Source: Rhodocyclales bacterium (GTDB taxonomy: Bacteria > Pseudomonadota > Gammaproteobacteria > Burkholderiales > Rhodocyclaceae). Taken from it: a stretch of DNA of 64,000 nucleotides. A program made the position numbers and the translations under genes. Below are positions 37,409 through 57,064 of this stretch, piece by piece. The notes beneath the pieces are model-generated. The model was not told where the DNA came from. It searched no databases and saw only the letters and a program-made list of their open reading frames with translations. Position 1 is the first letter of the stretch. Every line of letters starts with the position of its first letter. The DNA lies in the NCBI GenBank assembly GCA_016235165.1, contig JACRLX010000025.1, positions 62,001 through 126,000 of the forward strand. Reading direction: 5' to 3'.

Positions 37409-37470
37409 TCCTCCTTATGGTGGGCACGGTGAAGGTAGCTGGCCTTCCGAAATAAACAGCATTTACTAAA
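37409..37470 (+). ncRNA. GGTAGCTGGCC leader block, copy 1 (ssb)
   Basis: A small hairpin (GTCCTCC-TTAT-GGTGGGC, 37409-37425), then GGTAGCTGGCC (37434-37444) and AAACAGCATT (37454-37463). The same order and spacing recur at 38890, 47808 and 54592. It is part of the probable 5' leader of ssb. Confidence 0.65.
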
Positions 37471-37503
37471 CCCCGGCGGGGAAACCCCGTCAGGTACTGA
37501 CGG
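37471..37503 (+). ncRNA. C/G-rich leader element 1 (ssb)
   Basis: Stem GGCGGGG (37475-37481)/CCCCGTC (37485-37491), the same helix sequence as in the recT leader, with only AAA as loop. CCGTCAG/CTGACGG (37487-37503) can form an alternative hairpin. No loop-downstream helix is apparent. Confidence 0.55.
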
Positions 37504-37534
37504 CCTTCCTGCCAACTTTTTGTCAGGAGGCAAC

Positions 37535-37987
37535 ATGGCATCACTCAACAGAGTCACCCTCATCGGCAACTTGGGTGCCGACCCTGAGGTTCGTTACACG
37601 CAGAACCGCGAAGCGATCGCAACGATTCGGATCGCAACGACGGAGACGTACAAGGACAAGTCGTCCGGTGAAAAGAAGGAAATCACCGAATGGCACCGTG
37701 TCGTCTTTTTTGGTCGCACGGCGGAGGTCGTCGGCGAGTACCTGAAGAAGGGCTCGCCCGTCTACATCGAAGGTCGCATCCAGACCCGCAAATGGCAGGA
37801 CAAAGAGGGTCAGGATCGCTATGTCGTCGAAATTCTCGCCAGCGAGATGAAGATGCTCGGCACTCGTCCAGCGGATGACGATGCGCCCGATGCAGGCAAA
37901 GGCAAGCGTACCGGCAACGGTAAAGGCAAGCCTGCAGCCGCTTCGGGACCGGCATTCGAGGATGTACCCGACATCGAGCCGTTCTGA
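37535..37987 (+). CDS. ssb: Single-stranded DNA-binding protein
   Basis: A 150-aa SSB with an OB fold ([58 protein letters not shown]), a Gly/Lys linker and the acidic tail DVPDIEPF that recruits repair proteins. ATG 37535 follows AGGAGG by 4 nt. In conjugative elements SSB coats incoming single strands. It starts a long backbone run with exonuclease and RecT, the same association as ssb-bet-exo in SXT/IncA-C elements. Confidence 0.95.
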
Positions 37988-38005
37988 GTCGCACGTTTCT
38001 TGTTT

Positions 38006-38046
38006 CCCCACCGGGAGGTCATTCCTCCCCTGGGGGACATGCCTCC
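38006..38046 (+). ncRNA. C/G-rich leader element 2
   Basis: Nested stems CCCCA/TGGGG and GGGAGG/CCTCCC with loop TCATT, before the ribosome-binding site of the gene at 38068. No clear pseudoknot helix. Confidence 0.5.
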
Positions 38047-38067
38047 ATCACTTTTGGAGGTTTGTTC

Positions 38068-38340
38068 ATGGAGCGCGTCATTCTCGTCCTGGCCATGCTG
38101 GCAGGACTGCATCTGATCCTTTCGTTTCTTCAGTTTGCGCTGGAAGCCATTCGTGGCTCATTCCTGCGTGTTCCCCTCCAGGCCAAGGTCGAGGAGGTGG
38201 TAGCTGAGGTAGATGAAGCACCCGCCGAGGAACCGGTAACGGATTGGCGGCAGTACGACGTACCGGCGTATCTGCGTCGGAGCGGAATCGGCAACGATTC
38301 CGGCAGCACGGCAAAGGCTTCCTTCGAAGTCATTGCCTGA
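38068..38340 (+). CDS. Small single-pass membrane protein, unknown
   Basis: A 90-aa protein from ATG 38068, 7 nt after GGAGG. An N-terminal transmembrane helix (VILVLAMLAGLHLILSFLQF) is followed by a cytoplasmic acidic region (KVEEVVAEVDEAPAEEP). No family is recognised. It lies between ssb and the exonuclease gene. Confidence 0.6.
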   Translation: MERVILVLAMLAGLHLILSFLQFALEAIRGSFLRVPLQAKVEEVVAEVDEAPAEEPVTDWRQYDVPAYLRRSGIGNDSGSTAKASFEVIA

Positions 38341-38348
38341 AGTTTCAA

Positions 38349-38397
38349 CCCCAGCGGGGGCATCGCCTCCGCTAGGGGAGGGGTGCCCCCTTTTTTT
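38349..38397 (+). ncRNA. C/G-rich leader element 3 (pseudoknot or terminator)
   Basis: Stem AGCGG (38353-38357)/CCGCT (38369-38373). The loop contains GGGCA (38358-38362), which can pair with TGCCC (38384-38388). The same bases can also form GGGGGCA/TGCCCCC followed by seven T, a good intrinsic terminator. It could work as an attenuator. Confidence 0.6.
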
Positions 38398-38414
38398 ACT
38401 TCAGGAGGCATCTC

Positions 38415-38492
38415 ATGGAACTCGTTCTTCTCGCATGCTGCATTTCTGGCTGGATCATCAGCCGTCCGATCGTTCACGCGCTCGGTCTGTAG
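38415..38492 (+). CDS. 25-aa hydrophobic microprotein
   Basis: ATG 38415 follows AGGAGG by 6 nt and opens a 25-codon frame, MELVLLACCISGWIISRPIV then HALGL, ending TAG at 38492. It has one short membrane helix with two adjacent cysteines. The strong ribosome-binding site and the standard leader element just upstream support translation. The function is unknown. Confidence 0.55.
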   Translation: MELVLLACCISGWIISRPIVHALGL

Positions 38493-38503
38493 TTCGCAGT
38501 ATT

Positions 38504-38526
38504 GCCTGTGGGGGTCTTCCCCGCAG
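38504..38526 (+). ncRNA. C/G-rich leader element 4
   Basis: Stem CTGTGGGG/CCCCGCAG with loop GTCTT, followed by a second weaker GC block (GTCCTGCGGGGAT) and TGGAGAAAATC before ATG 38626. Confidence 0.5.
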
Positions 38527-38625
38527 CACAAAGCGCTTTTCTCGAAGAGCCCTTTGTCCTGCGGGGATCGCTCCATCTTGGATGCGGTTTTCGCCAGGGA
38601 ATCTCAACAACCTCTGGAGAAAATC

Positions 38626-38787
38626 ATGAAACTCAATCCCTATCTCGTTCGACTGTTCGACCCGCTGCCCATGGCCTTTGCCTGTGATCTCTATCAACGA
38701 CTGAGGGAAGGAAAGCGGGACATGGAAACCCGCGACATGTTGCTGAAGGCACTCGACATGGCGCGCAAAGCCGGAACCATCGAATGA
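38626..38787 (+). CDS. 53-aa hypothetical protein
   Basis: A small basic helical protein starting MKLNPYLVRLFDPLPMAFAC and ending ALDMARKAGTIE. ATG 38626 has TGGAGAA 5-6 nt upstream and a leader element. It opens with the same MKLN residues as the following exonuclease. No family is recognised. Confidence 0.55.
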   Translation: MKLNPYLVRLFDPLPMAFACDLYQRLREGKRDMETRDMLLKALDMARKAGTIE

Positions 38788-38796
38788 TCCCATCGC

Positions 38797-38928
38797 CCCG
38801 GACTTCCGGGGCTTTCCCGAGGGCGTTCGCCCCGAGCGTCCTGAGGAAAGCCAGATTTGATCGGACGGTTATCCGTTCGGTTGAAAAGCGGTAGCTGGCC
38901 GCGCGAAACAAACAGCATTTTCCAACCC
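38797..38928 (+). ncRNA. GGTAGCTGGCC leader block, copy 2 (exonuclease)
   Basis: Begins with a hairpin CCCCGG-ACTT-CCGGGG, then a block similar to the 5' parts of copies 3 and 4 (CCGGGGCTTTCC ... GAGGAAAGCC), a hairpin CGGACGG-TTAT-CCGTTCG (38862-38879), GGTAGCTGGCC (38890-38900) and AAACAGCATT (38910-38919). Confidence 0.65.
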
Positions 38929-38930
38929 AG

Positions 38931-38970
38931 CCGGGGACAACGCCCCGGTTCGGGTCGGTGCTTCCGGCAT
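38931..38970 (+). ncRNA. C/G-rich leader element 5 (exonuclease)
   Basis: Stem CCGGGG (38931-38936)/CCCCGG (38943-38948). Loop CAACG can pair imperfectly with CGGTG (38956-38960). GGAGGCATC precedes ATG 38987. Confidence 0.6.
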
Positions 38971-38986
38971 TCGCTCTGGAGGCATC

Positions 38987-39820
38987 ATGAAACTCAATCA
39001 TCCCGGCCTGCTCGTCATGCCGGCTACGCAGTATCACGCGGAGAAAGCCATCGGTCATTCGGGCATCGTCAAGATGCTCAAAAGCCCGGCCCACCTTCGC
39101 GAGTATCTGGATCATCCGCATGAACCGACGCCCGCCATGGTGTTCGGAACCGCAGTGCATACCTACGTGCTGGAGCAGGATCGCTTTGCCGAGGAATTCG
39201 TGGTGGCGGAGAAATTCGACCGTCGCACGAAGGAAGGCAAGGAAGCGGCGGCACGCTTCGAGGAAGCCAATCAGGGCAAGATCGTGATTACTTCCGAGGA
39301 AATGGCTACGCTCACCCTGGTGCAACACGCCGTGTATGCCCATCAAGGGGCGGCACGACTTCTGTCCGTTGGTGACGCCGAGCTCTCGGCGTTCTGGACG
39401 GATGCGGAAACGGGCCTCAACTGCAAGTGTCGGCCAGACTGGTTCAACGGTGAAGCTATCGTTGATCTCAAGACCTGCGTCGATGCCAGCAGTAGCGGGT
39501 TCTCCAAATCCATTGCGAACTTCGGCTACGACATCCAGGCGGCGTACTACGTCGACGGGATCAAGGCCGTGACCGGAATGGAGCTTCCGTTCCTGTTTGT
39601 CGCCGTGGAGAAGGACGCGCCGCACGCGGTAGCGGTGTATCGCGCCGATCCCGACGTGATCGAGATCGGGCGCAAGAAATACCGGGCGGCACTTCAGCTC
39701 TTGAAGTGGTGCCAGGCATCAGGCAACTGGCCGGCGTACCAACCGGGTGGCGAGATTGAACTGATCTCCCTGCCACGCTGGGCCGCCAACACAGAAGCCT
39801 TCGAGCTGGACGCCGCCTAA
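38987..39820 (+). CDS. RecE-like exonuclease (PD-(D/E)XK, partner of RecT)
   Basis: A 277-aa nuclease resembling the C-terminal domain of RecE: HSGIVKMLKSPAHLREYLDH, MVFGTAVHTYVLE, CRPDWFNGEAIVDLKTCVDA (catalytic Asp and Asp-x-Lys), FGYDIQAAYYVDGI and FVAVEKDAPHAVAVY. It degrades one strand of double-stranded DNA to load RecT. It is followed by recT and preceded by ssb, a complete phage-type recombination module. Confidence 0.87.
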   Translation: MKLNHPGLLVMPATQYHAEKAIGHSGIVKMLKSPAHLREYLDHPHEPTPAMVFGTAVHTYVLEQDRFAEEFVVAEKFDRRTKEGKEAAARFEEANQGKIVITSEEMATLTLVQHAVYAHQGAARLLSVGDAELSAFWTDAETGLNCKCRPDWFNGEAIVDLKTCVDASSSGFSKSIANFGYDIQAAYYVDGIKAVTGMELPFLFVAVEKDAPHAVAVYRADPDVIEIGRKKYRAALQLLKWCQASGNWPAYQPGGEIELISLPRWAANTEAFELDAA

Positions 39821-39848
39821 TCCGCGGCATTTCTTTGTAGGTCATCAA

Positions 39849-39896
39849 CCCCGGCGGGGATACCCATCCCCGTCATGGGAGACAGGTGTCTTCGCC
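39849..39896 (+). ncRNA. C/G-rich leader element 6, H-type pseudoknot (recT)
   Basis: Stem 1 GGCGGGG (39853-39859)/CCCCGTC (39868-39874). Loop bases CCCAT (39863-39867) pair with ATGGG (39875-39879) directly after stem 1. A further small hairpin AGACA/TGTCT follows. TGGAGAAAACC precedes ATG 39917. Confidence 0.72.
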
Positions 39897-39916
39897 ATTC
39901 TTCTTTGGAGAAAACC

Positions 39917-41014
39917 ATGTCTCAAACCCTACGCAACATCCAGAAGTCCCGCCAAGGCGTGCAGTCCAACGTGGTGCCGTTCCCGGCCATGCTGGAGCAG
40001 TTCAAAGGCGAAATTGCCCGTGCATTGCCCAAGCACTTGAGTCCGGATCGCATGGTGCGCATCGCACTAACCGCATTCCGCATGAACCCGAAACTGGCCC
40101 AGACCGATCCCCGCAGCGTCTTTGCGGCGGTGATCCAGTCCAGTCAGCTCGGGCTCGAAGTCGGCCTGATGGGCGAGGCGCACCTAGTGCCATTCGGCAA
40201 TCAGTGCCAGTTGATCCCCGGTTATCAGGGGCTCATGAAGCTGGCCCGCAATAGCGGCATCGTGCAGGACATCTACGGTCACGAAGTTCGCATCAACGAC
40301 AAGTTCGACATCGTCCTTGGACTTAACCGGACCCTGATGCACGAACCGTTGAAGAGGAACGGCTTCCCTGCCTCCGACGAGGAGCGGGGAGTGATCGTGG
40401 GCTTCTATGCCGTCGCCGTGTTCAAGGACGGTACCCGCACGTTTCACGCCCTGTCGAAGGAACAGATCGAACAGGTGCGCGACAACTCGCGTGGTTACCA
40501 GATGGCCAAGAAGTACGGGAAGGAAAGTCCCTGGGATACGCATTTCGTCCCGATGGGCCTCAAGACCGTGATTCGCCGGCTGTGCAACCTGTTGCCGAAG
40601 TCGCCGGAACTGGCGATGGCGCTAACGCTCGATGAAGTGACCGAGCGAGGTGAAAGCCAGAACATCGGGATCACCGAGGCAATTGACGGCTCTTGGGCGC
40701 CGATCGTCGACGAGGAAACGGGGGAGATCATTCAACCCACGACCGAGTCCGGTGACAAGGGAAGCAAGTCTGACAAGGCTGGGTCGCCCAAAGGTGCCGA
40801 GCCTCAAGCCTCCGGCAAGCTGCTGCAGGACACCCTGGCCATCATCGGCAGGGCGGCCACGACCGACGAACTGGATGAAGTCTATGTCCGGGCCGAAGGC
40901 TCATTTGAGGGTGGCGAGCTGGAGCAACTGCTCCGTGCTTACCGCAGTCGCAAGGCTGCCTTGGCCAATCCGTCCTCCGCAGACAGTGACATTTTCGGGG
41001 AGGAAGGCAAGTGA
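39917..41014 (+). CDS. recT: RecT single-strand annealing protein
   Basis: A 365-aa RecT-family recombinase from ATG 39917. Core features: LSPDRMVRIALTAFRMNPKL, VFAAVIQSSQLGLEVGL, GEAHLVPFGNQCQLIPGYQG, then FHALSKEQIEQVRDNSRG and DTHFVPMGLKTVIRRLCNLL. The C-terminus has an acidic linker and ends FGEEGK. It anneals complementary single strands together with the RecE-like exonuclease and probably diversifies the element. Confidence 0.95.
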   Translation: MSQTLRNIQKSRQGVQSNVVPFPAMLEQFKGEIARALPKHLSPDRMVRIALTAFRMNPKLAQTDPRSVFAAVIQSSQLGLEVGLMGEAHLVPFGNQCQLIPGYQGLMKLARNSGIVQDIYGHEVRINDKFDIVLGLNRTLMHEPLKRNGFPASDEERGVIVGFYAVAVFKDGTRTFHALSKEQIEQVRDNSRGYQMAKKYGKESPWDTHFVPMGLKTVIRRLCNLLPKSPELAMALTLDEVTERGESQNIGITEAIDGSWAPIVDEETGEIIQPTTESGDKGSKSDKAGSPKGAEPQASGKLLQDTLAIIGRAATTDELDEVYVRAEGSFEGGELEQLLRAYRSRKAALANPSSADSDIFGEEGK

Positions 41015-41016
41015 CC

Positions 41017-41223
41017 ATGCTTGGTGACACTGAGTTCGGTGCCATTCGGATCTGTGCCAGGGCAGTGCGTGTGCTCGATAACGTCAGTTTCCTGACGATG
41101 AACAAGGAAGATGATGCCGCCGTTGTATTGGCGCGCAATCAGCTTTTGAGCGTCATCCACGGCAACGGATACCAGATCGAGTACGAAACGTACCGCGTAA
41201 TCAAAGCCGACAACCGCAACTAA
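41017..41223 (+). CDS. Small hypothetical protein
   Basis: A 68-aa protein beginning MLGDTEFGAIRICARAVRVL, with a plausible alternative GTG start at 41011 that overlaps the recT stop. A GAGGAAGG ribosome-binding site lies upstream. No family is recognised. Confidence 0.5.
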   Translation: MLGDTEFGAIRICARAVRVLDNVSFLTMNKEDDAAVVLARNQLLSVIHGNGYQIEYETYRVIKADNRN

Positions 41224-41260
41224 GCGCAACGAATCACCGCGTTTATTCAAGGAGGCGGCC

Positions 41261-41581: not shown

Positions 41582-41595
41582 CTTTTTGCATTTCA

Positions 41596-41643
41596 ACCCA
41601 GGCGGGACAATCGCATTCCCGTCCGGGGATGCGGTTGCCTGCC
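41596..41643 (+). ncRNA. C/G-rich leader element 7, H-type pseudoknot (ParB-like gene)
   Basis: Stem 1 GGCGGGA (41601-41607)/TCCCGTC (41617-41623). Loop bases AATCGCAT (41609-41616) pair with ATGCGGTT (41629-41636), 8 bp with one wobble. GGAGGCATC precedes ATG 41662. Confidence 0.75.
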
Positions 41644-41661
41644 ATTTTTCATGGAGGCATC

Positions 41662-43341
41662 ATGCAACTGCAAGCATCTATCAAGGTCGGGAACATTCTT
41701 CCCGGTCGAAATCCTCGTGGTTACTTCGATCCTGCTGAGATGACGGAGCTGGAAGAGTCCGTCAAATCCAAGGGAGTGCTGCAGGCGATCCTGGTGCGGC
41801 CTCGCGATGCGGGACGCTACGAGATCGTCGCCGGCGAACGTCGCTGGCGCGCGGCGAAGAAGGTGTTCGGGGATGAGTATGAAATCCCTGCGCTGGTACG
41901 CGACCTGGACGATGGTGAAGCCGACGAGGCGGCGCTGATCGAGAACATCCAGCGTGCCAATATGAGTCCGACCGAAGAAGCTGAAGCGGCCGCCAAGATT
42001 CTTGGCCGTTGTCAGGGGGATCGGGACGAGACATCACGCCGGCTGGGCTGGTCGCGCACCACGCTCGACAAACGCCTGGCGCTGATGAACTGTTCGGAAC
42101 GGGTCCGTCGGGCCTTGTCCGAGCGGCGAATTCAGCTGGGCCATGCCGAGCTGCTGGCCGCAGTCACACGCGACAAGCAGGACGCCGTCCTCGATAAGTT
42201 GCTGTCCCAGGCCTGTCTGCCTACCGTGGTCCAGTTTCGCGGACAACTTGAGCAGATATCGCGGGCCTTGGGCAGTGCGATTTTCGACAAGGGCGAGTGC
42301 ACGTCTTGTCCCCACAATTCAGGGAACCAGCAGGCACTCTTTGGCGAGGCGATTGCAGCGGGTCATTGCACCCACGGTTCGTGCTTCGATAGCAAGACCG
42401 ATGCGGCGCTGGATGCCAAAAAGGCTTCGCTTGCCGACGACTATCCGACCATTCGGATCGTTCGCCCCGGCGAGAACTTCACGCTGCTGCGACTGGTGGC
42501 CGTCGGCGATACCGGAGTAGGCGAGGATCAGGCGAAAGCCTGCCGTGCCTGCAAGAACTTCGGTGCCGCAATTTCGGCCGTGCCAGGCAAGCTGGGCAAT
42601 GTCTATTCCGATCTGTGCTTCGATGCGAGCTGCAATGCCAAGAAGGTGGCGGCACGCCTCAAGCAGGAAAAGGAAAAGGCGGCGCCGGCAGAGGGTGCCA
42701 CCAAGGTAGCTACCGGCAAAACGGCCACCAGTGGCAAGTCCATGGGAAAGGCCGAAACCAAGTCTGAAGCCAAGGTCCAGGACTCGCAACGGGTCAAGGA
42801 CTACCGACTGGAAGTCTGGCGCAAGGCGCTGCGTCGGGAGTTGATGGCCAACCGTGAAAACAATCTCACGGTGCTCATCGCCCTGGCGTTGTCGGGCAAT
42901 GCCCGGCATATCAGCGATACCAAGCTGGGCAAGGCATTCGCCGCGATCACCAAGCAGGAATTCACCAGCTTCGTGTTCAAGGCGGACGAGGCGGCACGCC
43001 TGGTTGCGCAGTCGGAGGAGTCTGTGCGGGACAAGCTGTTCCTCGGACTGGCGGCATCCGCTGCGGACGGCATTGAGGAAAAGACCCTGGTCCAGCTCCT
43101 CAACTATCTCGAGATCGATCTCGGGCGGCACTGGAAGCTCTGTGAAGAGTTTCTCAAGCTGCTCACCAAGAGCGAAATCGAGGCGATGTGCGACGAGATC
43201 GGCTTGAAGGCAGCGATGGGCGGGGCATTTGCCAAGGCCATGAGCGGCAAGAAGGACGACATCATCAAGGCGCTGTTGAACGTGGCGGCCTTCCCTTATG
43301 AGGGCAAGGTGCCGCGGTCGATGCGTTTCAACATCGCGTAA
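41662..43341 (+). CDS. PRTRC system ParB-like protein
   Basis: A 559-aa protein from ATG 41662. The N-terminal ParB/Noc domain has NPRGYFDPAEMTELEESVKS, YEIVAGERRWRAAKKVFG and LIENIQRANMSPTEEAEAA, then an HTH (TSRRLGWSRTTLDKRLALM). The middle has a cysteine cluster (CTSCPHNSGNQ, CTHGSCF, CRACKNFG, CFDASCNAKK), probably zinc binding. A Lys/Ala linker and a helical C-terminal domain follow. It is the first gene of the ParB-Related, ThiF-Related Cassette; DNA binding is likely, the cassette function is unknown. Confidence 0.88.
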   Translation: MQLQASIKVGNILPGRNPRGYFDPAEMTELEESVKSKGVLQAILVRPRDAGRYEIVAGERRWRAAKKVFGDEYEIPALVRDLDDGEADEAALIENIQRANMSPTEEAEAAAKILGRCQGDRDETSRRLGWSRTTLDKRLALMNCSERVRRALSERRIQLGHAELLAAVTRDKQDAVLDKLLSQACLPTVVQFRGQLEQISRALGSAIFDKGECTSCPHNSGNQQALFGEAIAAGHCTHGSCFDSKTDAALDAKKASLADDYPTIRIVRPGENFTLLRLVAVGDTGVGEDQAKACRACKNFGAAISAVPGKLGNVYSDLCFDASCNAKKVAARLKQEKEKAAPAEGATKVATGKTATSGKSMGKAETKSEAKVQDSQRVKDYRLEVWRKALRRELMANRENNLTVLIALALSGNARHISDTKLGKAFAAITKQEFTSFVFKADEAARLVAQSEESVRDKLFLGLAASAADGIEEKTLVQLLNYLEIDLGRHWKLCEEFLKLLTKSEIEAMCDEIGLKAAMGGAFAKAMSGKKDDIIKALLNVAAFPYEGKVPRSMRFNIA

Positions 43342-43355
43342 GACAATTTCTTTCC

Positions 43356-43403
43356 ACCCAAGCGGGGACCACGTTCCCCGCAAGGGGCGTGGTGCGCCTG
43401 CCA
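43356..43403 (+). ncRNA. C/G-rich leader element 8, H-type pseudoknot (PRTRC E)
   Basis: Stem 1 GCGGGGA (43362-43368)/TCCCCGC (43375-43381). Loop bases CCACG (43369-43373) pair with CGTGG (43388-43392). GGAGGTACCACC precedes ATG 43426. Confidence 0.75.
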
Positions 43404-43425
43404 TTTTCTCTTTGGAGGTACCACC

Positions 43426-43845
43426 ATGTTTTTTCAGGAACTCAAATCGTTGTTGGATGGCTGCGCGGCACTGGCAGTCACGTTGTCATCTGCGCGGGAA
43501 GGATTGATCACCGTCACGGTGCGACCCACCCCGAAAGATGCGAAGGATGCCGAGGCATTGGCGATCCCGTTGGTCCTGACCGGAACGGCGGAGGAGCTGG
43601 ATGCGCAGTTCGTCGGTCTGCTTCGCAGCTTTGCCGAAGAGCACCAGTCGCTTGCCGAGCAATTGGAGGCGACCCGCAGCATTCTTGAGGCGGCGAAGAA
43701 AGACGCCAGCAAGAAAGCGGAAGGTGCACTCAGGAAAGGCACTGCCAAGATAACGGCGGCGGCCGATGACGACGATGACAATGAAGTCGAGAGCGGGACG
43801 CCGGCAGTCGCCGATGTTCCGGTCGAAGACAACCTTTTCGCATGA
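43426..43845 (+). CDS. PRTRC system protein E
   Basis: A 139-aa protein matching PRTRC E: MFFQELKSLLDGCAALAVTL, ITVTVRPTPK, ALAIPLVLTGTAEELDAQFV, then a helical/coiled region (HQSLAEQLEATRSILEAAKK), a Lys/Ala segment and an acidic C-terminus (DDDDDNEVESG, VEDNLFA). The function is unknown. It is followed 10 nt later by the ubiquitin-like protein gene, so the two are cotranslated. Confidence 0.82.
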   Translation: MFFQELKSLLDGCAALAVTLSSAREGLITVTVRPTPKDAKDAEALAIPLVLTGTAEELDAQFVGLLRSFAEEHQSLAEQLEATRSILEAAKKDASKKAEGALRKGTAKITAAADDDDDNEVESGTPAVADVPVEDNLFA

Positions 43846-43855
43846 GGAGGCGGTC

Positions 43856-44242: not shown

Positions 44243-44245
44243 GTC

Positions 44246-45432: not shown

Positions 45433-45440
45433 GTTCCATT

Positions 45441-45489
45441 AACCCGGTGCGGGTGATGTCCTGCCCGCCGGGCTCGACACGCCTGCACC
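45441..45489 (+). ncRNA. C/G-rich leader element 9 (PRTRC B)
   Basis: Stem 1 GCGGG (45449-45453)/CCTGC (45460-45464). Loop TGTC (45457-45460) can pair with GACA (45476-45479). An enclosing GGTGC/GCACC pairing is also possible. AAGGAGGTCGCG precedes ATG 45510. Confidence 0.58.
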
Positions 45490-45509
45490 ATTTCATTAAG
45501 GAGGTCGCG

Positions 45510-46247
45510 ATGGCGATCAATGTCAGTACGTTTTCCAGCGAACAGTCGTACCGGCTGACTCATGCCGTCCTGATCTATCAGGATGCGCAGCGTAAGCCGG
45601 CGTTCGTGTCGATTCATGATGTGGGATCGGACGATGGCAATCTTCCGGTGATTCAGGCCGGGGTTCCGGCCAGCAAGGCGGGACTCATGGCGATGATGCG
45701 GATTCTCGATCCGGAAACGATGCTCAAGCCGGCCATCAAGCCGGCGCATGTGCTCGCGGACGGATCGGGTTTCTTCGTCTGGTACAGCGCTCCACAGGAC
45801 AGGCAGGTCTGGTTCGACTGCAAGGAACTCGGTGCGCGAACCGCTCGGGTTCCCTGTCCGGGACTGGTGTTCGTGGTGACCACGAAGGCATGGAAGGTGT
45901 TTGCGTTCAAGGGGCGGCAACGTCCCGATGCCGATACGCCGCTGTTCGTCGCGCCATTCTTCAATGTCTGGCAAAACGGCACGATCTGTGTTGGCAGTGC
46001 CCGCTTGCCGAAAGGCGATCAGGTACACAACCACCTGGCCTGGGAGGAAGCCTTCTTCCGGTCCTACTTCACGCATCCGAATATCCATACCCCAAGGGGG
46101 CTGACCCGTTACCGGGCCGGTCCTTTTGCCTTGTGGCGGGATCTGCTGGATGGTCGCCTGAGTCGCTTTCCAACGCGCACGCTCGTTCCGACGGGTTGGA
46201 CGCTACGGCAAGCTTTTGAGGCCGCCGTGCTGGAAGGAGACGTGTGA
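45510..46247 (+). CDS. PRTRC system protein B (E2-like)
   Basis: A 245-aa protein from ATG 45510. The conserved core FVAPFFNVWQNGTICVGSAR followed by AWEEAFFRSYFTHPN matches PRTRC B, grouped with E2-like prokaryotic ubiquitin-conjugating folds. Cys160 in GTICVGS is the candidate catalytic cysteine. It overlaps PRTRC A by 4 nt. With the ubiquitin-like C, JAMM-like A and E1-like ThiF it would complete a conjugation-like set. Biochemistry is inferred. Confidence 0.83.
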   Translation: MAINVSTFSSEQSYRLTHAVLIYQDAQRKPAFVSIHDVGSDDGNLPVIQAGVPASKAGLMAMMRILDPETMLKPAIKPAHVLADGSGFFVWYSAPQDRQVWFDCKELGARTARVPCPGLVFVVTTKAWKVFAFKGRQRPDADTPLFVAPFFNVWQNGTICVGSARLPKGDQVHNHLAWEEAFFRSYFTHPNIHTPRGLTRYRAGPFALWRDLLDGRLSRFPTRTLVPTGWTLRQAFEAAVLEGDV

Positions 46248-47678: not shown

Positions 47679-47696
47679 TGGCTGAACCATTTTCCC

Positions 47697-47838
47697 GGTG
47701 CATGCGCGTTTGCGTGTGCCGGGCTTTCCAGAACGGGTTGCGCATGTCCGTAGCCCGCTGTGGAAAACCCGAGTTTGGCCGTTCCCATAAGGGAATGACT
47801 GAAAAGCGGTAGCTGGCCGCCGGAAACAAACAGCATTT
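47697..47838 (+). ncRNA. GGTAGCTGGCC leader block, copy 3
   Basis: Starts with an imperfect hairpin ending GTGTGCCGGG, then TTTCCAGAACGGGTT and AGCCCGCTGTGGAAA, which align with copy 4. A hairpin TTCCC-ATAA-GGGAA (47782-47795) follows, then GGTAGCTGGCC (47808-47818) and AAACAGCATT (47828-47837). Confidence 0.68.
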
Positions 47839-47841
47839 CTC

Positions 47842-47880
47842 AACCCTGTGGGGGCTTGCTCCCGACAGGGTCGCTGCCTC
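47842..47880 (+). ncRNA. C/G-rich leader element 10
   Basis: Coaxial stem CCCTGT (47844-47849)/ACAGGG (47865-47870) continued by GGG/CCC, with loop GCTTGCT. The pseudoknot pairing is weak in this copy. GGAGGCACC precedes ATG 47903. Confidence 0.55.
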
Positions 47881-47902
47881 CCGATTATTTACTGGAGGCA
47901 CC

Positions 47903-47962
47903 ATGAAGCACGATGTACGAATGCTGCGCGAAGCGATTCGCGTGGCAAGGGGATGGTCATGA
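47903..47962 (+). CDS. 19-aa leader peptide coupled to the next gene
   Basis: ATG 47903 directly follows GGAGGCACC, the standard ribosome-binding site of this backbone, and opens MKHDVRMLREAIRVARGWS. Its stop (TGA 47960-47962) overlaps the ATG at 47959 of the next gene. It may couple or regulate translation of that gene. Confidence 0.55.
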   Translation: MKHDVRMLREAIRVARGWS

Positions 47963-48318: not shown

Positions 48319-48341
48319 TTTCTTTCGGCCTTACGGCCATT

Positions 48342-48384
48342 ACCCGAGCGGGGAACCCACCCGCGCGGGAATGGGTGTCTCCGC
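48342..48384 (+). ncRNA. C/G-rich leader element 11, H-type pseudoknot
   Basis: Stem 1 GCGGG (48348-48352)/CCCGC (48360-48364). Loop bases ACCCA (48355-48359) pair with TGGGT (48372-48376). A small hairpin GGCC-TTAC-GGCC lies just upstream (48327-48338). TGGAGAGCACC precedes ATG 48404. Confidence 0.72.
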
Positions 48385-48403
48385 CTTTTATTTGGAGAGC
48401 ACC

Positions 48404-49081
48404 ATGGGCGTAGGTAATTGGCTTCCGAATCGGGAGCATCGCTTGTTTTATGTGGATATCGATTCCTGCTTGGACGAAAGCGAGTTCTCAAGACTTGTTC
48501 AATCCGGAGAAATCGATGCCTGTACGCGCTACGGAGATTTTCTGCAGGAATCCTACGATTCCGAGCTGGAGATGATTACCAGTGCGCTGGAATCGATAGC
48601 AGGGCTGCTACGGCAGAACGGTATCCCGATCGAGTCATTCCACTATGCCAAGCGTTCAGAAATGAACGCGATCGAACGCGCGGAATGGATGTATCCATTG
48701 CTGGAGTGCGGTTGGGTACGTGTGGCAGTCAAGGAGATTGAAATATCCAAGCTGGCAGTCGTGACGTACCCACTTCAGCATCAGGATGACGATAGTGATT
48801 TGGCCAATCTGCCCCGTGCGGAGTTTGTTACCGAGCATGGAGTGACACCGGAGCGCTGCATCACGGCTACTTCATTACAGATGAATGCCCTTGATCAGTT
48901 GCTGGTTGCGGTCATCGAAGCTGAGATCAATGCGGTCAGCGCCAAGACAGTTACGCGTCGAGGCTGTGCCTGGACAAGTCGTCTTGTGGATGAGTCGATG
49001 CCGGTAAAGACAGCTTTATCGAAATTCCGCAATACATACCGATACGGCTTGTCGAGACGTCACCAGAAGCAGGCGGCATAA
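48404..49081 (+). CDS. Hypothetical protein
   Basis: A 225-aa protein from ATG 48404 (MGVGNWLPNREHRLFYVDID). The N-terminal region is acidic and the C-terminus basic (YRYGLSRRHQKQAA). No signal, membrane segment or recognised motif is seen. The long upstream extension of this frame overlaps the previous gene and the leader element and is not used. Confidence 0.6.
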   Translation: MGVGNWLPNREHRLFYVDIDSCLDESEFSRLVQSGEIDACTRYGDFLQESYDSELEMITSALESIAGLLRQNGIPIESFHYAKRSEMNAIERAEWMYPLLECGWVRVAVKEIEISKLAVVTYPLQHQDDDSDLANLPRAEFVTEHGVTPERCITATSLQMNALDQLLVAVIEAEINAVSAKTVTRRGCAWTSRLVDESMPVKTALSKFRNTYRYGLSRRHQKQAA

Positions 49082-49216
49082 CCGATGTTTGCGCTGTTTG
49101 AAATATCGCGGTTCCGTTCTGTTCATTTGTAGCGCAGCACTTAGTACTCAAAAAGCATCACGAGGTCATCTGACGGGTGGCGAAAGCTGAACGTCCATGA
49201 CGAGTAATCGATTTTC

Positions 49217-49262
49217 AACCCTTCCGGGGACACACCCCGGAAGGGGACACGTGTCTCCGGCA
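49217..49262 (+). ncRNA. C/G-rich leader element 12, H-type pseudoknot (methylase-helicase)
   Basis: Stem 1 TTCCGGGG (49222-49229)/CCCCGGAA (49235-49242). Loop ACAC (49230-49233) pairs with GTGT (49251-49254); the helix can extend by one G-C pair. CAGGAG precedes GTG 49279. Confidence 0.7.
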
Positions 49263-49278
49263 TTTTCAGGAGATAAAC

Positions 49279-52200
49279 GTGAAACTCAAGAAACTGGCGG
49301 AAGTCACCATGTGGCTGCCGGGGTTCGCTCCGGACGATCCGCTTCCGATGATTTCCCACGTCGTACCGTCGGCGGAAATCATCGCGTTCCCCTTGGTGGT
49401 ACCGGTACAGGTCACCGTACCGGCGGGCAGTAACGAAGTCGAATTTGTGTCTCCCGCGCTGATCGGGGAGACGCAACCTCAACGGCCACCGCGGGTGTTG
49501 TGGCCCAGCCTGGATGGCACCGTGCATTCGATGCTGCGAGGCGACGTCACCAAGTTCGATGCGAACCTGGCTGCTGTCTCGCTGTTGTCGTGTCTGGAAG
49601 CGGAGAACCGTCCGCCGACTGAAGACGAGCGCAATGTCCTCAACTGCTATACCGGGTGGGGTGGCATTTCCAAAGCGTTCAATCCCGATCAGGACGATCC
49701 TGCGTGGAGGGCGAGAGCTGAATCCTTGCCTGACTTGCTTGGCGAGGATTACGAAAGCGCCAAGGGGAGCGTCGTCAATGCCCACTTCACGGAAGTTTTC
49801 GTGATTGAAGCACTCTGGGCGGCGGTGCGTCGCATGGGATTCCAGGGTGGTCGTGTGCTGGAGCCTTCTGCCGGCATCGGGTATTTCATCGGTGCCATGC
49901 CGAAGGATCTCGCGGAAGCGTCGGAAATCACCGCCATCGAGATCGACCGTCTGTCGTCGCGCATCCTGCAGCGCCAGTACGGGCATCAAGGTGTTCGGAC
50001 ACTACCGATCGGTTTTGAAAAGGCACGGCTACCCAAGGACTGGTTCGATCTGGTGATCTCGAATGTTCCCTTCGGGAACTATCAGGTGCCGGACGATCGG
50101 AATGTGCCCTACGCCGATTTTCTGATCCATGACTACTTCTTCGGGCGAGCCCTGGAAGTGACCCGTCCGGGTGGTCTGGTGGCGCTTATTACGTCGGCCG
50201 GAACGCTGGACAAATGGGAAGACCGGGCGCGGAGATACATTGCGTCGCAGGCACGACTGGTGGGTGCAATTCGTTTGCCGTCGGGGACGTTTTCACCGCT
50301 GGCCAATACCGACGTCACGACCGATATCGTCTTCCTGCAGAAGTTGGCAGCAGGCGAGAAGGCCGCAGACGATTGGCTGAGTGTGGTGGAAGCACCGTAT
50401 GGCCTCTGTGATGGGCATCGCCGCCTGTTCGTCTCGAACTGGTATGTCCAGAACCCGGACATGCTGATCGGACGCTTGAGCCAGAAGTCGAATGGCTATG
50501 GCCTCGCCAATGCAGCCATTTTTAATGGCGATGTGAAGGGGGCGTTGCACGATCGGGTAGCCGGTTTGCCCGAAGGGATCTATGTGCCACGTCTGACCAG
50601 CAAGGCTGATCGGTCGGCGCAGGTGCAGCGGGACATTCGTGTCGCAGCGCCTGAGTTCGTCAAACCCGGTGCGTACTGCTTCACTGAGGATGGCCGACTG
50701 GCTGTTTCCGAGGGGCAGGAACTGCTGGTCATTGAGGGGGCGGTATCGGCAACGGTTGCCAAGCGCATTGTCGGCTTGATGGCCATCCGGGACGCAGCAC
50801 GCCGGCTACTCCATGTTCAGCATGTCACGGCGGACGATAGTCGGTTGGGCAGTTACCGGCTGGCACTCAACATGGCCTATGACGGCTTTGTGGCACGGCA
50901 TGGCTATCTGCATGCCAAGGCCAACAAGCTGGCCTTCAAAGGCGATCCGGATTTGCCACTGCTTCTGTCTTTGGAGAACTTTGATCCGGAAAGCGGCACG
51001 GCAGAGAAGTCGGACATTTTCTACCGCAGAACGGTGGGGGTGGTTCGCAAGGTGGATCGGTGTGAGTCAGCCGAAGAAGCGCTGCTCGTCTCTTTGCACG
51101 AGCGTGGGCGCATCGACGTTCCGTTGATGGAGTCCTTGCTGGGGCGGGAGAGGGCGCAGTTCCTCCCGGATATGGCGGATCGCGGTCTGATCTTCCTGAA
51201 TCCGGAAAGTGCGCTTTGGGAAACCGCGGATGCCTATCTGTCGGGCAATGTGCGCCATAAGCTCGACATGGCGGACGTCGCGGGTGATGACTATGCCCGT
51301 AACGTCGTGGCGCTCAAGGCGGTCATTCCGGCGGATCTGGGGCCGGGCGAAATCGATGCCCGGATAGGTTCAACGTGGATTCCGTCGCGTGACTATGCAG
51401 CATTCCTCGATCATCTTCTGGAATGCGAAGGTTGCACGGTGGAGTTCAGTGCCGAGGCCGGCGCATGGAACATCGATGTGCCGTGGCAGGGCGAACGGTC
51501 GGTAGCATCGACCCAAACCCACGGTACGGGTCGCATGACGGCGGGCGAGCTGTTTGTGGTTACGCTCAATCAGATGGTGCCAACGATACGGGATCGCGAT
51601 CCGGTCACTGACCGGTATTTCGTGAACACGGAGGAAACCATTGCCGCACGGGAAAAGCAGCAGGCACTCAAGGACGCATTTCGCTCCTGGGTGTTCGCCG
51701 ATCCCGAACGGTGCGAGCGTCTGGTCAGGATGTACAACGACCAGTTCAATGCCGTCAGGCTCAGGGAGTTCGATGGGTCAAGGCTTTCCTTGCCGGGATT
51801 TTCGGAGGTGTACAACCTCCATCGGCATCAGAAAGACGCTATCTGGCGAATCGTCTCCGGTGGGGTGAATACCTTGCTGGCCCATGTGGTCGGCGCCGGT
51901 AAAACCCTGACGATGATTTGCGGCGGAATGGAGTTGCGGCGTTTTGGCATCGCGGGCAAGCCCTGCTATGTCGTGCCCAACCACATGCTGGAGCAGTTTG
52001 CCGCCGAGTTTTTGCGAGCCTATCCAGGTGCCAACATCCTGATGGCCAGCAAGGACGACCTGGTAGGAGACAAGCGCCGGACGTTGTTGTCACGGATTGC
52101 CACCGGTGACTGGGATGGCGTACTGATTACCCATGCCTCTTTCGAGAGGATCAAGATGAGCGATGACGCAATGGCGTCGTTCATCAAAGAGCGAGTTTAC

Positions 52201-54276: not shown

Positions 54277-54384
54277 CGTGAAAACCTGCACTCGGTAAGG
54301 AGGCCGTTGCCCAGCAGGGCAACGGTTTCCGCTACCGACGTGGCGCGCTGACGCGGGCCATGCTGGCTGTATTTCAGGAACCTC

Positions 54385-54411
54385 GAAATCGATCCAAAAA
54401 GGTCACATTTC
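54385..54411 (+). promoter_or_regulatory. GAAAT-N13-ATTTC-type box, copy b (upstream of primase)
   Basis: GAAATCGA, TCCAAAAAGG, TCACATTTC. It is nearly identical over its right half to copy c near mobI. It lies in the 436-nt gap before the primase gene, ahead of the structured leader. Confidence 0.68.
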
Positions 54412-54473
54412 AAATTCCAGGCGGGATCGGGGCTGCGTAGCATTACTCCGGTTTCCTCCCCTGTGTCTTTCCT

Positions 54474-54622
54474 GGCGCACGCACTGTGTGCCGGGGTTTT
54501 TCAGAGCGGGTTTAACGGGCTGTGTGAGCCCGCTGTGCAAAGCCTGAACATGGGATTCAGTCTGACGCCGTAAGGCATCGGACGGACGTGTGGTAGCTGG
54601 CCACGAGAAAACAAACAGCATT
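54474..54622 (+). ncRNA. GGTAGCTGGCC leader block, copy 4 (primase)
   Basis: Starts GGCGCACGCACTGTGTGCC, then GGGGTTTTTCAGAGCGGGTT and AGCCCGCTGTGCAAAG, aligning with copy 3. A hairpin GACGCC-GTAA-GGCATC (54564-54579), GGTAGCTGGCC (54592-54602) and AAACAGCATT (54613-54622) follow. Confidence 0.68.
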
Positions 54623-54626
54623 CACT

Positions 54627-54669
54627 AACCCCGCCGGGGAGCCTTTCCCGGTCGGGATTGCTCCATGCC
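54627..54669 (+). ncRNA. C/G-rich leader element 13, H-type pseudoknot (primase)
   Basis: Stem 1 GCCGGG (54633-54638)/CCCGGT (54647-54652). Loop GAGC (54639-54642) pairs with GCTC (54660-54663). The gene start follows at 54713 after ATGGAGGCATCGGCA. Confidence 0.66.
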
Positions 54670-54712
54670 GCGCGGAGATTTCCACACGGAGTTTTACATG
54701 GAGGCATCGGCA

Positions 54713-55777
54713 ATGAAGCACGAGTACGAGACGCAGCAAGTCAAGGAAGATGCGCGTGGTCGCTGGGAGCGAGTGCTGTTCACTCTGGCGCCACCGTTGA
54801 AAGCCGCACTGGACCGTAAAGGCAAGCATGTGCCTTGTCCGGTTCATGGCGGTCGGGATGGCTTTCGCATTTTTCCGGATGTCGCGGAAACAGGCGGAGG
54901 CATCTGCAATACCTGCGGCAGTTTTGCCAACGGCTTTGCGCTGCTGATGTGGATCAACGGCTGGGATTTTGGCCGCGCCATCCGCGAGGTAGCCGAACAG
55001 GTCGGCAGCCGCTCTCGCCACGCCAAGTCGGGAACGGCGAAATCCGAAGATGATATTCGCCGGGAGCAGTTGAATCGAACCTGGCGGGAGTCTGTTCCCT
55101 TGTCGCATCCCAGCGCCGAGCCGGCCCGCTTGTATCTGGCCCGGCGTGGATTGTCGGTCAAGGTGCCCGTGACGCTGCGGTTTCATGCGGCGCTCGGTTA
55201 CTTCGAGGACAACCGGCTGCTCGCCGACTACCCGACCCTGATCGCGCAAGTGACCGGGCAAGGGGGTGATGCGGTGACGATCCATCGTACCTATCTGACC
55301 TCAGACGGCCACAAGGCGCCGGTGGATGCACCCAAGAAACTGATGCGCCATCCGTTGGCGCGACAGATGACCGGGGGTGCCATTCGGCTGGTGCCGGCGG
55401 GAAATCGCCTGGCAGTGACCGAAGGGATCGAGACGGCGCTGGCCGTCACCGAGGCGATTGGGATTCCGACCTGGGCGACAGGCAACGCTCATCTGTTGGC
55501 GACGTTTCAACCGCCGGCCGGTATAGAGCAGGTGCTGGTTTTCGCTGATAAGGACCGGCCATCGCAGCAGCATCCATCCGGCCACGGACAGGAAGCGGCA
55601 CGCGAACTGGTTACGCGGCTGTGGGGCATGGGGATTCGGGCAGGAGCGATTGCACCGGCGCTCGAAATTCCCGACGGCAAGAAGGGAATCGACTGGCTGG
55701 ATGTGCTCGTCCTTCAAGGCAAGGCGGGATTTCCCGCGCTGGGGAGCGTCGATCAGGCGCTACACCAGGCCGCCTAG
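54713..55777 (+). CDS. Primase-like protein: zinc ribbon and Toprim domain
   Basis: A 354-aa protein from ATG 54713, chosen because GGAGGCATC sits 5-8 nt before it as in other leaders; 54698 is also possible. The N-terminal zinc ribbon has CPVHGGRDGFRIF and CNTCGSFANGFALLMW. A Toprim-like domain follows: LAVTEGIETALAVTEAIGIP, ATGNAHLLATFQPPAG and VLVFADKDRP. This resembles P4-alpha-type plasmid primases without the helicase part. It likely primes complementary-strand synthesis after transfer or at the RepA origin. Confidence 0.85.
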   Translation: MKHEYETQQVKEDARGRWERVLFTLAPPLKAALDRKGKHVPCPVHGGRDGFRIFPDVAETGGGICNTCGSFANGFALLMWINGWDFGRAIREVAEQVGSRSRHAKSGTAKSEDDIRREQLNRTWRESVPLSHPSAEPARLYLARRGLSVKVPVTLRFHAALGYFEDNRLLADYPTLIAQVTGQGGDAVTIHRTYLTSDGHKAPVDAPKKLMRHPLARQMTGGAIRLVPAGNRLAVTEGIETALAVTEAIGIPTWATGNAHLLATFQPPAGIEQVLVFADKDRPSQQHPSGHGQEAARELVTRLWGMGIRAGAIAPALEIPDGKKGIDWLDVLVLQGKAGFPALGSVDQALHQAA

Positions 55778-55787
55778 GAGAACGATC

Positions 55788-56051
55788 GTGTACGGCGTAA
55801 TCGATTTCAGTCTGATCGACACCATGCCGGGTGGTCAGGGGGCATTTGCACCTCCCGCCGGATGGCAAGGCGACTACCAGCAATTCCTGCGCGCGCGCTT
55901 TCAGTCGGATTGTGGCGCGCGTCAGCACATTGCCGTGGTTGGTCGGCGACTCTTCATCAAAATCGAAGGCAAGCCCAGCGAGTTTATCGGGCCGCATGCG
56001 GTCGAGGCCAAGGAGTTCGCGCTGTCGATCTGGTCTGCGAAACGGAAGTAA
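55788..56051 (+). CDS. Small hypothetical protein
   Basis: An 87-aa protein from GTG 55788, with TAGGAGAAC upstream and 10 nt after the primase stop. Sequence: MYGVIDFSLIDTMPGGQGAF, ARQHIAVVGRRLFIKIEGKP, FALSIWSAKRK. A longer frame reaching back into the primase gene is a shadow. No family is recognised. Confidence 0.55.
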   Translation: MYGVIDFSLIDTMPGGQGAFAPPAGWQGDYQQFLRARFQSDCGARQHIAVVGRRLFIKIEGKPSEFIGPHAVEAKEFALSIWSAKRK

Positions 56052-56116
56052 CCCAGTAGCAACGCGAAGGGCTATCCAGTCCTTCCACTCACCACCTGGC
56101 TTCGGCCGGAAATTTC

Positions 56117-56162
56117 ATCCCACGGGGAACGCATTGCTCCCCGACAGGGGCGGTGCCTCCCC
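56117..56162 (+). ncRNA. C/G-rich leader element 14, H-type pseudoknot (ArdC-like gene)
   Basis: Stem 1 CGGGGA (56123-56128)/TCCCCG (56138-56143). Loop bases GCATTGC (56131-56137) pair with GCGGTGC (56150-56156), 7 bp with two wobbles. AGGAGGCACC precedes ATG 56182. Confidence 0.74.
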
Positions 56163-56181
56163 ATTTTTCATAGGAGGCACC

Positions 56182-56979
56182 ATGCACGACAAATTTTCAC
56201 CACTGCTCAAACAGGCACTGACGGAGCCTGGCATCGTCAGCGCGGCCTATGGCCGGTTTCATCGCTTCAGTCTCGGCAACCAGATCCTGGCAGCCATTCA
56301 GTTGCAGGAGCGGAATCTGCCTCTGTCGCCGATCGCCAGTTTCAACCGCTGGAAGGAACTGGGACGTTCGGTATCCAAGGGACAGAAAGCCCTGTCGCTC
56401 TGGATGCCGATCACCGTCAAGCACAGAGACACGGAATCAGACGGTGATTTGTCCAACGACAACATCCGTCTCCTGACGCTGTTCAAGTTGGCGCCGCGCT
56501 GGTTCAGTCTGGAACAGACCGAAGGCGAGGACTACCTCGAACCGATCGAGTCGCCCCAGTGGAATGCCGATGTTGCCTTGACGGGGCTGGGCATTACGCA
56601 GGAGGCATTCGAATTCATGGACGGGAATGTGCAGGGCTATGCGGTGAAACGGCGAATTGCCGTGAGTCCGATCGCCGAGTATCCGCACAAGACGCGTTTT
56701 CATGAAATGGCGCATGTAGTGCTCGGTCATACCGAGGAAGACGATTGCCACGATGCCGCGACGATTCCCAGAAGCATTCAGGAGGTCGAGGCGGAAGGCG
56801 TGGCTTTCCTGCTGTGCTCCATTCTCGATCTGCCCGGACGCGATGAGTCGCGTGGCTACATCCAGTCGTGGCTCGACGGCGAACCCTTGCCGGAGAAGTC
56901 GGCGCAGAAGATTTTCAGCGCAAGCCAGAAGATCCTTGATGCCGGAAAAGCCGCTGACGAAGCTGGCGTATTGCAGTAA
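56182..56979 (+). CDS. ArdC-like antirestriction / zincin protein
   Basis: A 265-aa protein. The N-terminal half matches ArdC-type single-strand DNA-binding domains (YGRFHRFSLGNQILAAIQLQ, GRSVSKGQKALSLWMPI, FKLAPRWFSLEQTEG). The C-terminal half is a zincin-like metallopeptidase with HEMAHVVLGH as the zinc site and a downstream Glu (EVEAEGVAFLLCSIL). ArdC proteins protect incoming plasmid DNA from restriction. It lies between primase and radC in an establishment module. Confidence 0.85.
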   Translation: MHDKFSPLLKQALTEPGIVSAAYGRFHRFSLGNQILAAIQLQERNLPLSPIASFNRWKELGRSVSKGQKALSLWMPITVKHRDTESDGDLSNDNIRLLTLFKLAPRWFSLEQTEGEDYLEPIESPQWNADVALTGLGITQEAFEFMDGNVQGYAVKRRIAVSPIAEYPHKTRFHEMAHVVLGHTEEDDCHDAATIPRSIQEVEAEGVAFLLCSILDLPGRDESRGYIQSWLDGEPLPEKSAQKIFSASQKILDAGKAADEAGVLQ

Positions 56980-56995
56980 TCCGAATCCATTCATT

Positions 56996-57045
56996 CCACC
57001 CCGCGGGGCGACTCATCGCCCGCAGGGGGAGGGGCCGTCCTGCAT
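56996..57045 (+). ncRNA. C/G-rich leader element 15 (radC)
   Basis: Stem GCGGG(G)CG (57003-57010)/CGCCCGC (57017-57023) with a bulged G. The second helix is short (ACTC with GAG). GGAGGCACCC precedes ATG 57065. Confidence 0.55.
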
Positions 57046-57064
57046 TTCTTTGGAGGCACCCAAG

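Follow-up and report, generated by a model that had tools for sequence, protein, structure and literature searches.

Fourteen short RNA leaders that precede genes in a 64,000-nucleotide (nt) stretch of a Rhodocyclales bacterium genome (contig JACRLX010000025.1, positions 62,001 to 126,000; this whole 64 kb stretch is referred to here as the window) belong, by their sequences and folds, to one family. We consider it roughly two-thirds probable (0.66), from sequence and modelled folds, that these leaders are six-strand attenuators in which a terminator and a hairpin that hides the Shine-Dalgarno (SD) sequence share one strand. A preliminary description of this DNA had listed about 15 pseudoknotted elements ahead of start codons and read them as one family of structured leaders placed before most backbone genes. 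The single family is borne out at 14 of those 15 sites. The remaining one, at 38504, is reported by none of our three covariance models at the limits used, and lies in a different large predicted hairpin (38490-38600), with the next start codon about 120 nt downstream. Judging from its genes, the region is probably part of a plasmid or integrative element.

Six strands and three helices

The design that we propose has six strands, namely ACCC (strand 1), nCGGGG with the loop (strand 2), CCCCGn (strand 3), GGGG (strand 4), GGUGnCUCCGn followed by a U-tract (strand 5) and the SD strand GGAGnCACC (strand 6). Sequence comparison, covariation and predicted energies establish three predicted helices and their mutual exclusion. 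P1 consists of ACCC/GGG and nCGGGG/CCCCGn. T joins nCGGGG and the loop to the tail and CUCCGn, and is capped by CCCC/GGGG. P3 is the tail paired with the SD region of the next gene. P1 and T exclude each other, as both use strand 2 and strands 3/4, and both covary; the 3′ strand of T doubles as the anti-SD strand of P3. Neither P3, nor the U-tract after the second helix, nor the helix between the first G-rich strand and the strand that precedes the U-tract appears in the preliminary description.

Three covariance models were used. R1 was made from eight leaders, took P1 (the first stem) as its sole paired region, and recovers 11 of the 14 window elements (E ≤ 1). R2, built from 70 matches, gives 19 matches over the window at E ≤ 5, antisense and partial ones included. 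R1 and R2 contain the tail consensus, and R2 ends in ATG. The best 150 of 291 R2 matches (149 distinct, 9 rows from the window), fitted to P1 only, form the alignment A7, from which R3 was built using the T pairs only. The preliminary description had suggested a covariance model and a scan of Rfam as checks. Over the window at E ≤ 5, R3 returns 14 matches that are exactly the 14 elements, all on the + strand (9 of them were in its training set; the other 5 are marked in Table 1), and the Rfam 15 scan gave no relevant match (below). The window contains the strict core pattern AACCCNNNCGGGG-CCCCG-GGGG a single time, and none of 100 shuffles contains it.

All three helices are supported by covariation in A7. 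For P1, 97.5% of 1317 cells are paired, 105 of them two-sided; the values are 80.2% of 2141 cells with 108 two-sided for T, and 75.3% of 1306 cells with 91 two-sided for P3. None of 500 shuffles reaches the observed percentage paired, number of two-sided cells or covariation score of any of the three, and slid versions of P1, T and P3 all pair fewer cells. The base helix of T (columns 12-16/60-64 plus 11/69) is paired in 84.8% of 837 cells (41 two-sided, 0/500 shuffles), and the middle helix of T, which is the second helix of the preliminary description, has 58 two-sided cells (0/500 shuffles). At element E7, for example, one pair of the middle helix is A-U, G-U or G-C across relatives. The CCCC/GGGG that can close the top of T is nearly invariant and for that reason lacks covariation of its own.

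Partner swapping gives the same picture. In sets in which no pair of elements exceeds an alignment score of 0.70, each strand was paired with its own partner or with those of other elements (5000 permutations). Loops pair with their own tails at -8.34 kcal/mol compared with -5.25 kcal/mol for swapped tails, and tails pair with their own SD regions at -12.56 compared with -8.65 kcal/mol (72 elements, 0/5000 each). In an independent set of 39 elements from loci outside the building of R2 (L039-L072, of which L058 is another contig of the genome of the window), the corresponding values are -8.59 and -5.14 kcal/mol for loop and tail, and -13.66 and -8.61 kcal/mol for tail and SD region (0/5000 each). 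The base helix of T is also recovered by swapping (1 and 12 of 5000; 55 elements). The covariation claimed for the second helix in the preliminary description is thus upheld by both the permutations and the shuffles. Among the eight second-helix pairings that it named, seven are wholly kept in the predicted T stem. The eighth, CCCAT/ATGGG at 39849 (E6), has 0 of 5 pairs in T and is not kept in relatives; the conserved middle helix there is ATACC/GGTGT (ATACCA/TGGTGT in L015-L017).

In 36 of 41 elements the strand that serves both the loop pairing and P3 shows an overlap of at least 2 nt, and in 34 of 41 the SD is paired (at least 3 of 4 nt). Loops resemble the ribosome-binding site (RBS) region of their own gene more than those of others (3.93 versus 3.50, 14/5000, 41 elements), which fits a competition between loop and SD for a common strand. 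In relatives of E2 the loop (GAGGTCT or GGGAGGTC) reproduces the SD and is able to base-pair with the anti-SD strand.

Terminator-like character and fold energies

T resembles an intrinsic terminator. When a piece of fixed length was folded with the U-run unused and under the constraint that three C of strand 3 find a partner downstream, strand 2 joined T in 72/72 elements, with a mean stem of 14.1 base pairs (bp). The 8 nt after T hold a mean of 5.22 U, compared with 1.32 elsewhere in the same elements, and at least 4 U in 62/72 elements (12/14 in the window). Energies of forced folds were compared for the 61 of 72 elements that have a U-run of at least 3. T is favoured over P1 in 44/61 when the sequence stops at the U-run, and P1 with P3 is favoured over T in 52/61 at full length; some folds forced to P1 (for example window:41594) do not show P1, and their energies are rough. 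At E7, even the full-length sequence favours T, and the SD of E6 is unpaired when the P1 fold is forced.

Proposed mechanism

We suggest that expression is set by the fold that wins during transcription. In fold A, strand 2 would pair with strand 3 and strand 1 with strand 4 (P1), and strand 5, left free, would pair with the SD (P3); polymerase would read on and the ribosome site would be hidden. In fold B, strand 3 would pair with strand 4 and strand 2 with strand 5 (T), giving a GC-rich hairpin of about 14 bp that ends at the U-tract, where transcription would stop as at an intrinsic terminator. If polymerase had already passed, the same fold would keep strand 5 off the SD and leave the SD open. 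We think it probable that T terminates transcription in the cell, and equally probable that P3 limits translation. The preliminary description had proposed a common translational switch. In our reading this covers only half of the design; support for a transcription attenuator is no weaker.

The most economical candidate for a signal is a ribosome finishing the upstream gene, an idea that we put forward tentatively and at rather less than even odds. Upstream of 37/72 elements, the stop of a co-directional open frame (at least 60 codons) lies no more than 60 nt away, compared with 18% of 360 random positions, and the median distance from stop to element is 20 nt among the 46 stops found within 400 nt. 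A study of the lambda tR2 terminator reports that coupled ribosomes repress terminators near a stop codon and that this is relieved beyond ~27 nt (PMC4824070). Many leaders start at similar distances after a stop codon, and by this analogy the upstream ribosome is a plausible signal; as that study describes it, tR2 has neither an alternative fold nor a link to the SD of the next gene, from which an insulator separates it (PMC4824070). An RNA-binding factor as the signal, or a fixed, unsignalled tuning in place of any signal, are each only slightly less probable. The genome of the window has two matches to a NusG-type antiterminator, both on contigs other than that of the window, and this candidate was rejected.

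Several observations weigh against an attenuator. Sliding the middle helix out of register still gives 50 two-sided cells in two versions, compared with 58 for the true register (covariation scores of 0.109 and 0.117 compared with 0.278); the number of pairs with two-sided change is not above shuffles (263 of 500 for T, 397 for P3, 223 for the base helix and 487 for the middle helix); and 50 of 128 cells at pair 12-64 are unpaired. In the swap tests, the control pairing of loop with SD region gives 92/5000 in the full set and 641/5000 in the independent set, the signal of the base helix of T drops in 30 independent elements (102 and 202 of 5000), and there is none at the apex of T (958 and 276 of 5000). 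Part of the U-tract enrichment is ascertainment, because R1 and R2 include the tail consensus. Two window elements, E5 and E13, have a poor U-tract (3 U of 8), and a U-run of 3 is missing in 11/72 elements. Strand 2 pairs with at least 4 nt of the tail in 51/61 elements, and in 45/61 there is also a U-run within 2 nt. Within the window, T is favoured over P1 before the SD in just 8/14 elements, and at full length in 3/14. A generic terminator scan of the region found no excess (17 compared with 16.3 in shuffles), although it accepts only short uninterrupted stem-loops, which bulged T stems can escape. Finally, no trans factor is in sight: clustering of 1164 open reading frames (ORFs) from 33 locus sets gave no protein common to all fetched pieces, the widest cluster being present in 16 sets, and an element-encoded factor was rejected on this basis; the sets are pieces of elements, and a common factor could lie outside them.

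Alternative explanations

The leaders could instead form a regulon in which one RNA-binding protein or small molecule recognizes the ACCC / GGG core, for example as feedback by an SSB or recombinase of the plasmid. The ACCC and GGG columns hardly vary (95-100% each), and ssb, recT and an exonuclease gene are among those behind the leaders. Such invariance can, however, follow from the SD alone, strand by strand: the SD fixes strand 5, and through it strands 2, 3, 4 and 1 in turn, so that the near-invariant sequence needs no ligand. Together with the lack of a protein cluster shared by all fetched pieces, this makes a regulon unlikely.

It is improbable that the leaders are plain intercistronic terminators, in which T would end the upstream transcript, P1 and P3 would be by-products of GC-rich repeats and nothing would be regulated. 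The frequency of nearby co-directional stops fits this explanation. Against it, P1 and the SD hairpin covary too, four window elements sit behind a repeated promoter-like block, and the element continues into the RBS of the following gene as far as the start codon. The start codon falls exactly at the end of the model in 146/150 A7 matches, a figure that is partly built in, as the R2 model ends in ATG; an ORF of at least 40 codons opens at 132/150.

The preliminary description had proposed an H-type pseudoknot, and the corresponding explanation is a translational switch in which the P1b part of P1 and the loop-tail helix would be present at once and govern access to the SD. Both of these helices covary, and with the P1a part open the nnGGGG stretch could span a 6-bp stem. 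The second helix, however, begins directly after the first G-strand (alignment columns 16/17), so that no loop 1 separates the 5′ strands of the stem and the second helix, and its 3′ strand lies 1-5 nt after the outer GGG (4 nt in 101/150 rows). From this geometry we infer that it would hardly coexist with the whole first stem. It also extends at both ends into a nested hairpin that adjoins the U-tract, and a pseudoknot predicts neither a covarying base helix nor a U-tract immediately after it. Furthermore, the loop-tail pairing is weak in E1 (-3.0 kcal/mol), E2 (-3.6 kcal/mol) and E5 (-4.2 kcal/mol), all of which still fold T. The second helix is therefore better read as the middle of the long nested hairpin T, and we regard a pseudoknot as the main fold as quite improbable.

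A signal acting in DNA (a single-stranded hairpin or protein-binding site used in transfer) is very unlikely: DNA-transfer and recombination genes do lie behind leaders, and the same doubt has been raised for the STAXI motif (PMC2864571), but the third helix contains the SD, T has a U-tract behind it, and the elements are oriented towards start codons and adjoin them.

Distribution of the leaders

The attenuator-like leaders extend well beyond the window. A protein search with PRTRC ThiF found 11 loci, 9 of which (L011-L019) are 83-98% identical in ThiF, and many of these loci carry orthologous leaders. Across 499,166 bases, R1 gives 142 matches (E ≤ 1), including matches on plasmids pSTJ2 of Sulfuricystis multivorans and pMOL28 of Cupriavidus metallidurans and on plasmids of Delftia acidovorans, Simplicispira suum, Rhodoferax ferrireducens and Piscinibacter. 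Over 45 sources (842,750 bases), the 291 matches of R2 were obtained at E ≤ 0.05. With only 12 candidates scored in each genome, and with the genome of the window included in the counts, R2 finds elements in 56/399 genomes and 39/159 genera at the level of the order (E ≤ 0.001), and in 13/398 genomes at the level of the phylum (E ≤ 1e-4), 8 of which are outside the order. Matches are often clustered on one contig. In the genome of the window itself, R2 (E ≤ 1) finds 11 elements in the window and 4 on contig C42; these four further elements (G000:C42:12068-14124, - strand) perhaps mark a second mobile element.

The PRTRC plasmid of Aromatoleum EbN1 (plasmid 1) was considered as a carrier and rejected, with 0 R1 matches; it has one weak R3 match (18.1 bits, E = 0.081), which we judge to be an ordinary terminator before a leader. 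The element therefore does not simply follow PRTRC genes. A phage origin of the leaders was set aside; the core pattern matched 10 stretches of viral_contigs. One contig titled as an Anaerolineaceae metagenome-assembled genome (L017) carries a proteobacterial-type leader and a ThiF that is 83% identical, possibly through a binning error or transfer.

A Pfam search of 53 proteins encoded downstream of leaders (one per cluster, 53 of 54 clusters) found 29 families, which include RecT, SSB, RadC, ArdC, ParB, DNA methylase, helicases and several DUFs.

Elements of the window and neighbouring features

The 14 elements and the ORFs that follow them are listed in Table 1. E13 is the weakest member; besides its poor U-tract, it has a longer and different SD hairpin.

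Table 1. Leaders of the window. T and P3 (SD hairpin) positions are from predicted folds; names marked NCBIfam were assigned to the protein by that resource; aa, amino acids.
Element	Leader	Strand	T hairpin	P3	Following ORF	R3 E value	Other details
E1	37468..37537	+	37475-37513	37503-37531	37535-37987, ssb (NCBIfam)	8.6e-4, outside training set	SD 37526-37529; R2 E = 1.5e-4
E2	38004..38070	+	38014-38046	38036-38066	38068-38340, 90 aa	0.51, outside training set	
E3	38347..38417	+	38356-38390	38380-38414	38415-38492, 25 aa	2.3e-12	T followed by TTTTTTTA
E5	38924..38989	+	38930-38968	38957-38986	38987-39820, exonuclease VIII-like (NCBIfam)	1.2e-9	
E6	39847..39919	+	39853-39896		39917-41014, RecT (NCBIfam)	1.2e-10	
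E7	41595..41664	+	41601-41643		41662-43341, PRTRC ParB (NCBIfam)	4.3e-12	T followed by ATTTTTCA
E8	43355..43428	+	43362-43401	43388-43428	43426-43845, PRTRC protein E (NCBIfam)	6.5e-12	
E9	45441..45512	+	45446-45489		45510-46247, PRTRC protein B (NCBIfam)	0.033, outside training set, but E9 orthologues of relatives inside	T followed by ATTTCATT
E10	47841..47905	+	47847-47883	47873-47902	47903-47962, 19 aa	6.1e-10	
E11	48341..48406	+	48348-48384	48374-48403	48404-49081, 225 aa	6.9e-11	T followed by CTTTTATT
E12	49216..49281	+	49224-49260	49248-49281	49279-54276, 1665 aa, matches plasmid helicase-related proteins	5.5e-11	
E13	54626..54715	+	54631-54675 (T-like)		54713-55777, 58% identity to annotated toprim protein of pSTJ2	0.17, outside training set	
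E14	56116..56184	+	56124-56162	56152-56181	56182-56979, 45% identity to annotated ArdC-like protein of pSTJ2	8.4e-10	T followed by ATTTTTCA; P3 is GGTGCCTCC/GGAGGCACC, pairs SD
E15	56996..57067	+	57003-57043	57031-57061	57065-57664, RadC family (NCBIfam)	7e-7, outside training set	T followed by ATTTCTTT

A repeated block, GGTAGCTGGCC ... AAACAAACAGCATTT, lies directly before E1, E5, E10 and E13 (37426-37480, 38882-38936, 47800-47854 and 54581-54639); it is promoter- or operator-like and possibly marks four starts of transcription units. A 27-nt repeat, GAAATnCGnCCAAAAAGkTCACATTTC, occurs at 37336-37362, 54385-54411 and 60682-60708 (78-100% identical to the reference), with a fourth copy at 57755 (67%). 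The gene at 36621-37322 (- strand) has 50% identity over 177 aa to an annotated AcaB-family regulator of pSTJ2, which hints at IncC-type transcriptional control. A perfect 34-nt palindrome, ATGGCCCTGCACACCAATTGGTGTGCAGGGCCAT, lies at 57670-57703, immediately behind the radC-like gene; it is followed by TTTG and is possibly a strong terminator.

Relation to known RNAs

At gathering thresholds, Rfam 15 finds only a group II intron in the window (at 1.3-2.0 kb; three matches to intron pieces at 1326-1959), and at E ≤ 10 the 36.5-57.5 kb region gives three unconvincing matches (E = 4.5-5.7), none of which is an element. The same gathering-level search of four loci of relatives finds only one sbcD RNA (RF01757), on pMOL28, in a stretch (L023:32659-32813) that is not an element; this plasmid also carries leaders. 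No match to STAXI (RF01728) was found in the window at gathering or in the 36.5-57.5 kb region at E ≤ 10, and the two weak matches in the genome lie outside the window and below the cut-off (E = 0.895 and 6.89).

Among the closest known parallels in design is the Bacillus subtilis trp leader with TRAP, an attenuator that has a terminator, an antiterminator and an SD-sequestering hairpin. The leaders described here are similar in their alternative folds, their U-tract terminator and read-through transcripts that would be able to hide the SD; the difference is that here one conserved module recurs, ahead of 14 different genes in a single stretch and on many plasmids. Neither a leader peptide nor a binding protein is known to us for these leaders. 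Known attenuators are, to our knowledge, mostly gene-specific, with one per operon, and the leaders would be unusual among attenuators in being repeated before many different genes on many mobile elements.

Among candidate structured RNAs, STAXI is described as tandem pseudoknots near ssb, antirestriction and integrase genes in Enterobacteriales (PMC2864571). The leaders resemble it as structured RNAs near genes of these kinds, whereas they are single-copy and end on the start codon. The radC RNA (RF01754), marked as a likely cis-regulator in Table 1 of the same report (PMC2864571), and the sbcD RNA are likewise candidate proteobacterial RNAs; the former has no match in the window and the latter, as noted, matches a different stretch of pMOL28. 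That table also includes, without an Rfam entry, the Burkholderiales-1 motif (Weinberg et al. 2010; PMC2864571), named after Burkholderiales, which may or may not be the same RNA as the leaders. Searches of open-licence literature turned up no publication recognized as describing these leaders.

Implications

The repetition of the leader suggests one reusable on/off module for plasmid genes. An extended version of the ribosome signal is a relay, in which a ribosome ending gene n would block T, let polymerase pass and leave the SD of gene n+1 open transiently. We regard a relay as improbable, and mention it for what would follow. Genes would be switched on successively after entry into a new cell and would be silenced again as the leaders relax to P1 with P3, and the leader would be a portable module of conjugative plasmids and islands of Proteobacteria that works without a dedicated regulator. 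Because no such regulator is needed, a relay could be used by mobile elements with differing gene sets and in many hosts. Independently of any relay, one compact design recurs before ssb, recT, exonuclease, parB, radC, ArdC-like and methylase/helicase genes on plasmids and probable islands from many hosts. If the attenuation mechanism is correct, mobile DNA could use it, independently of the host, to restrict or schedule the expression of its own genes.

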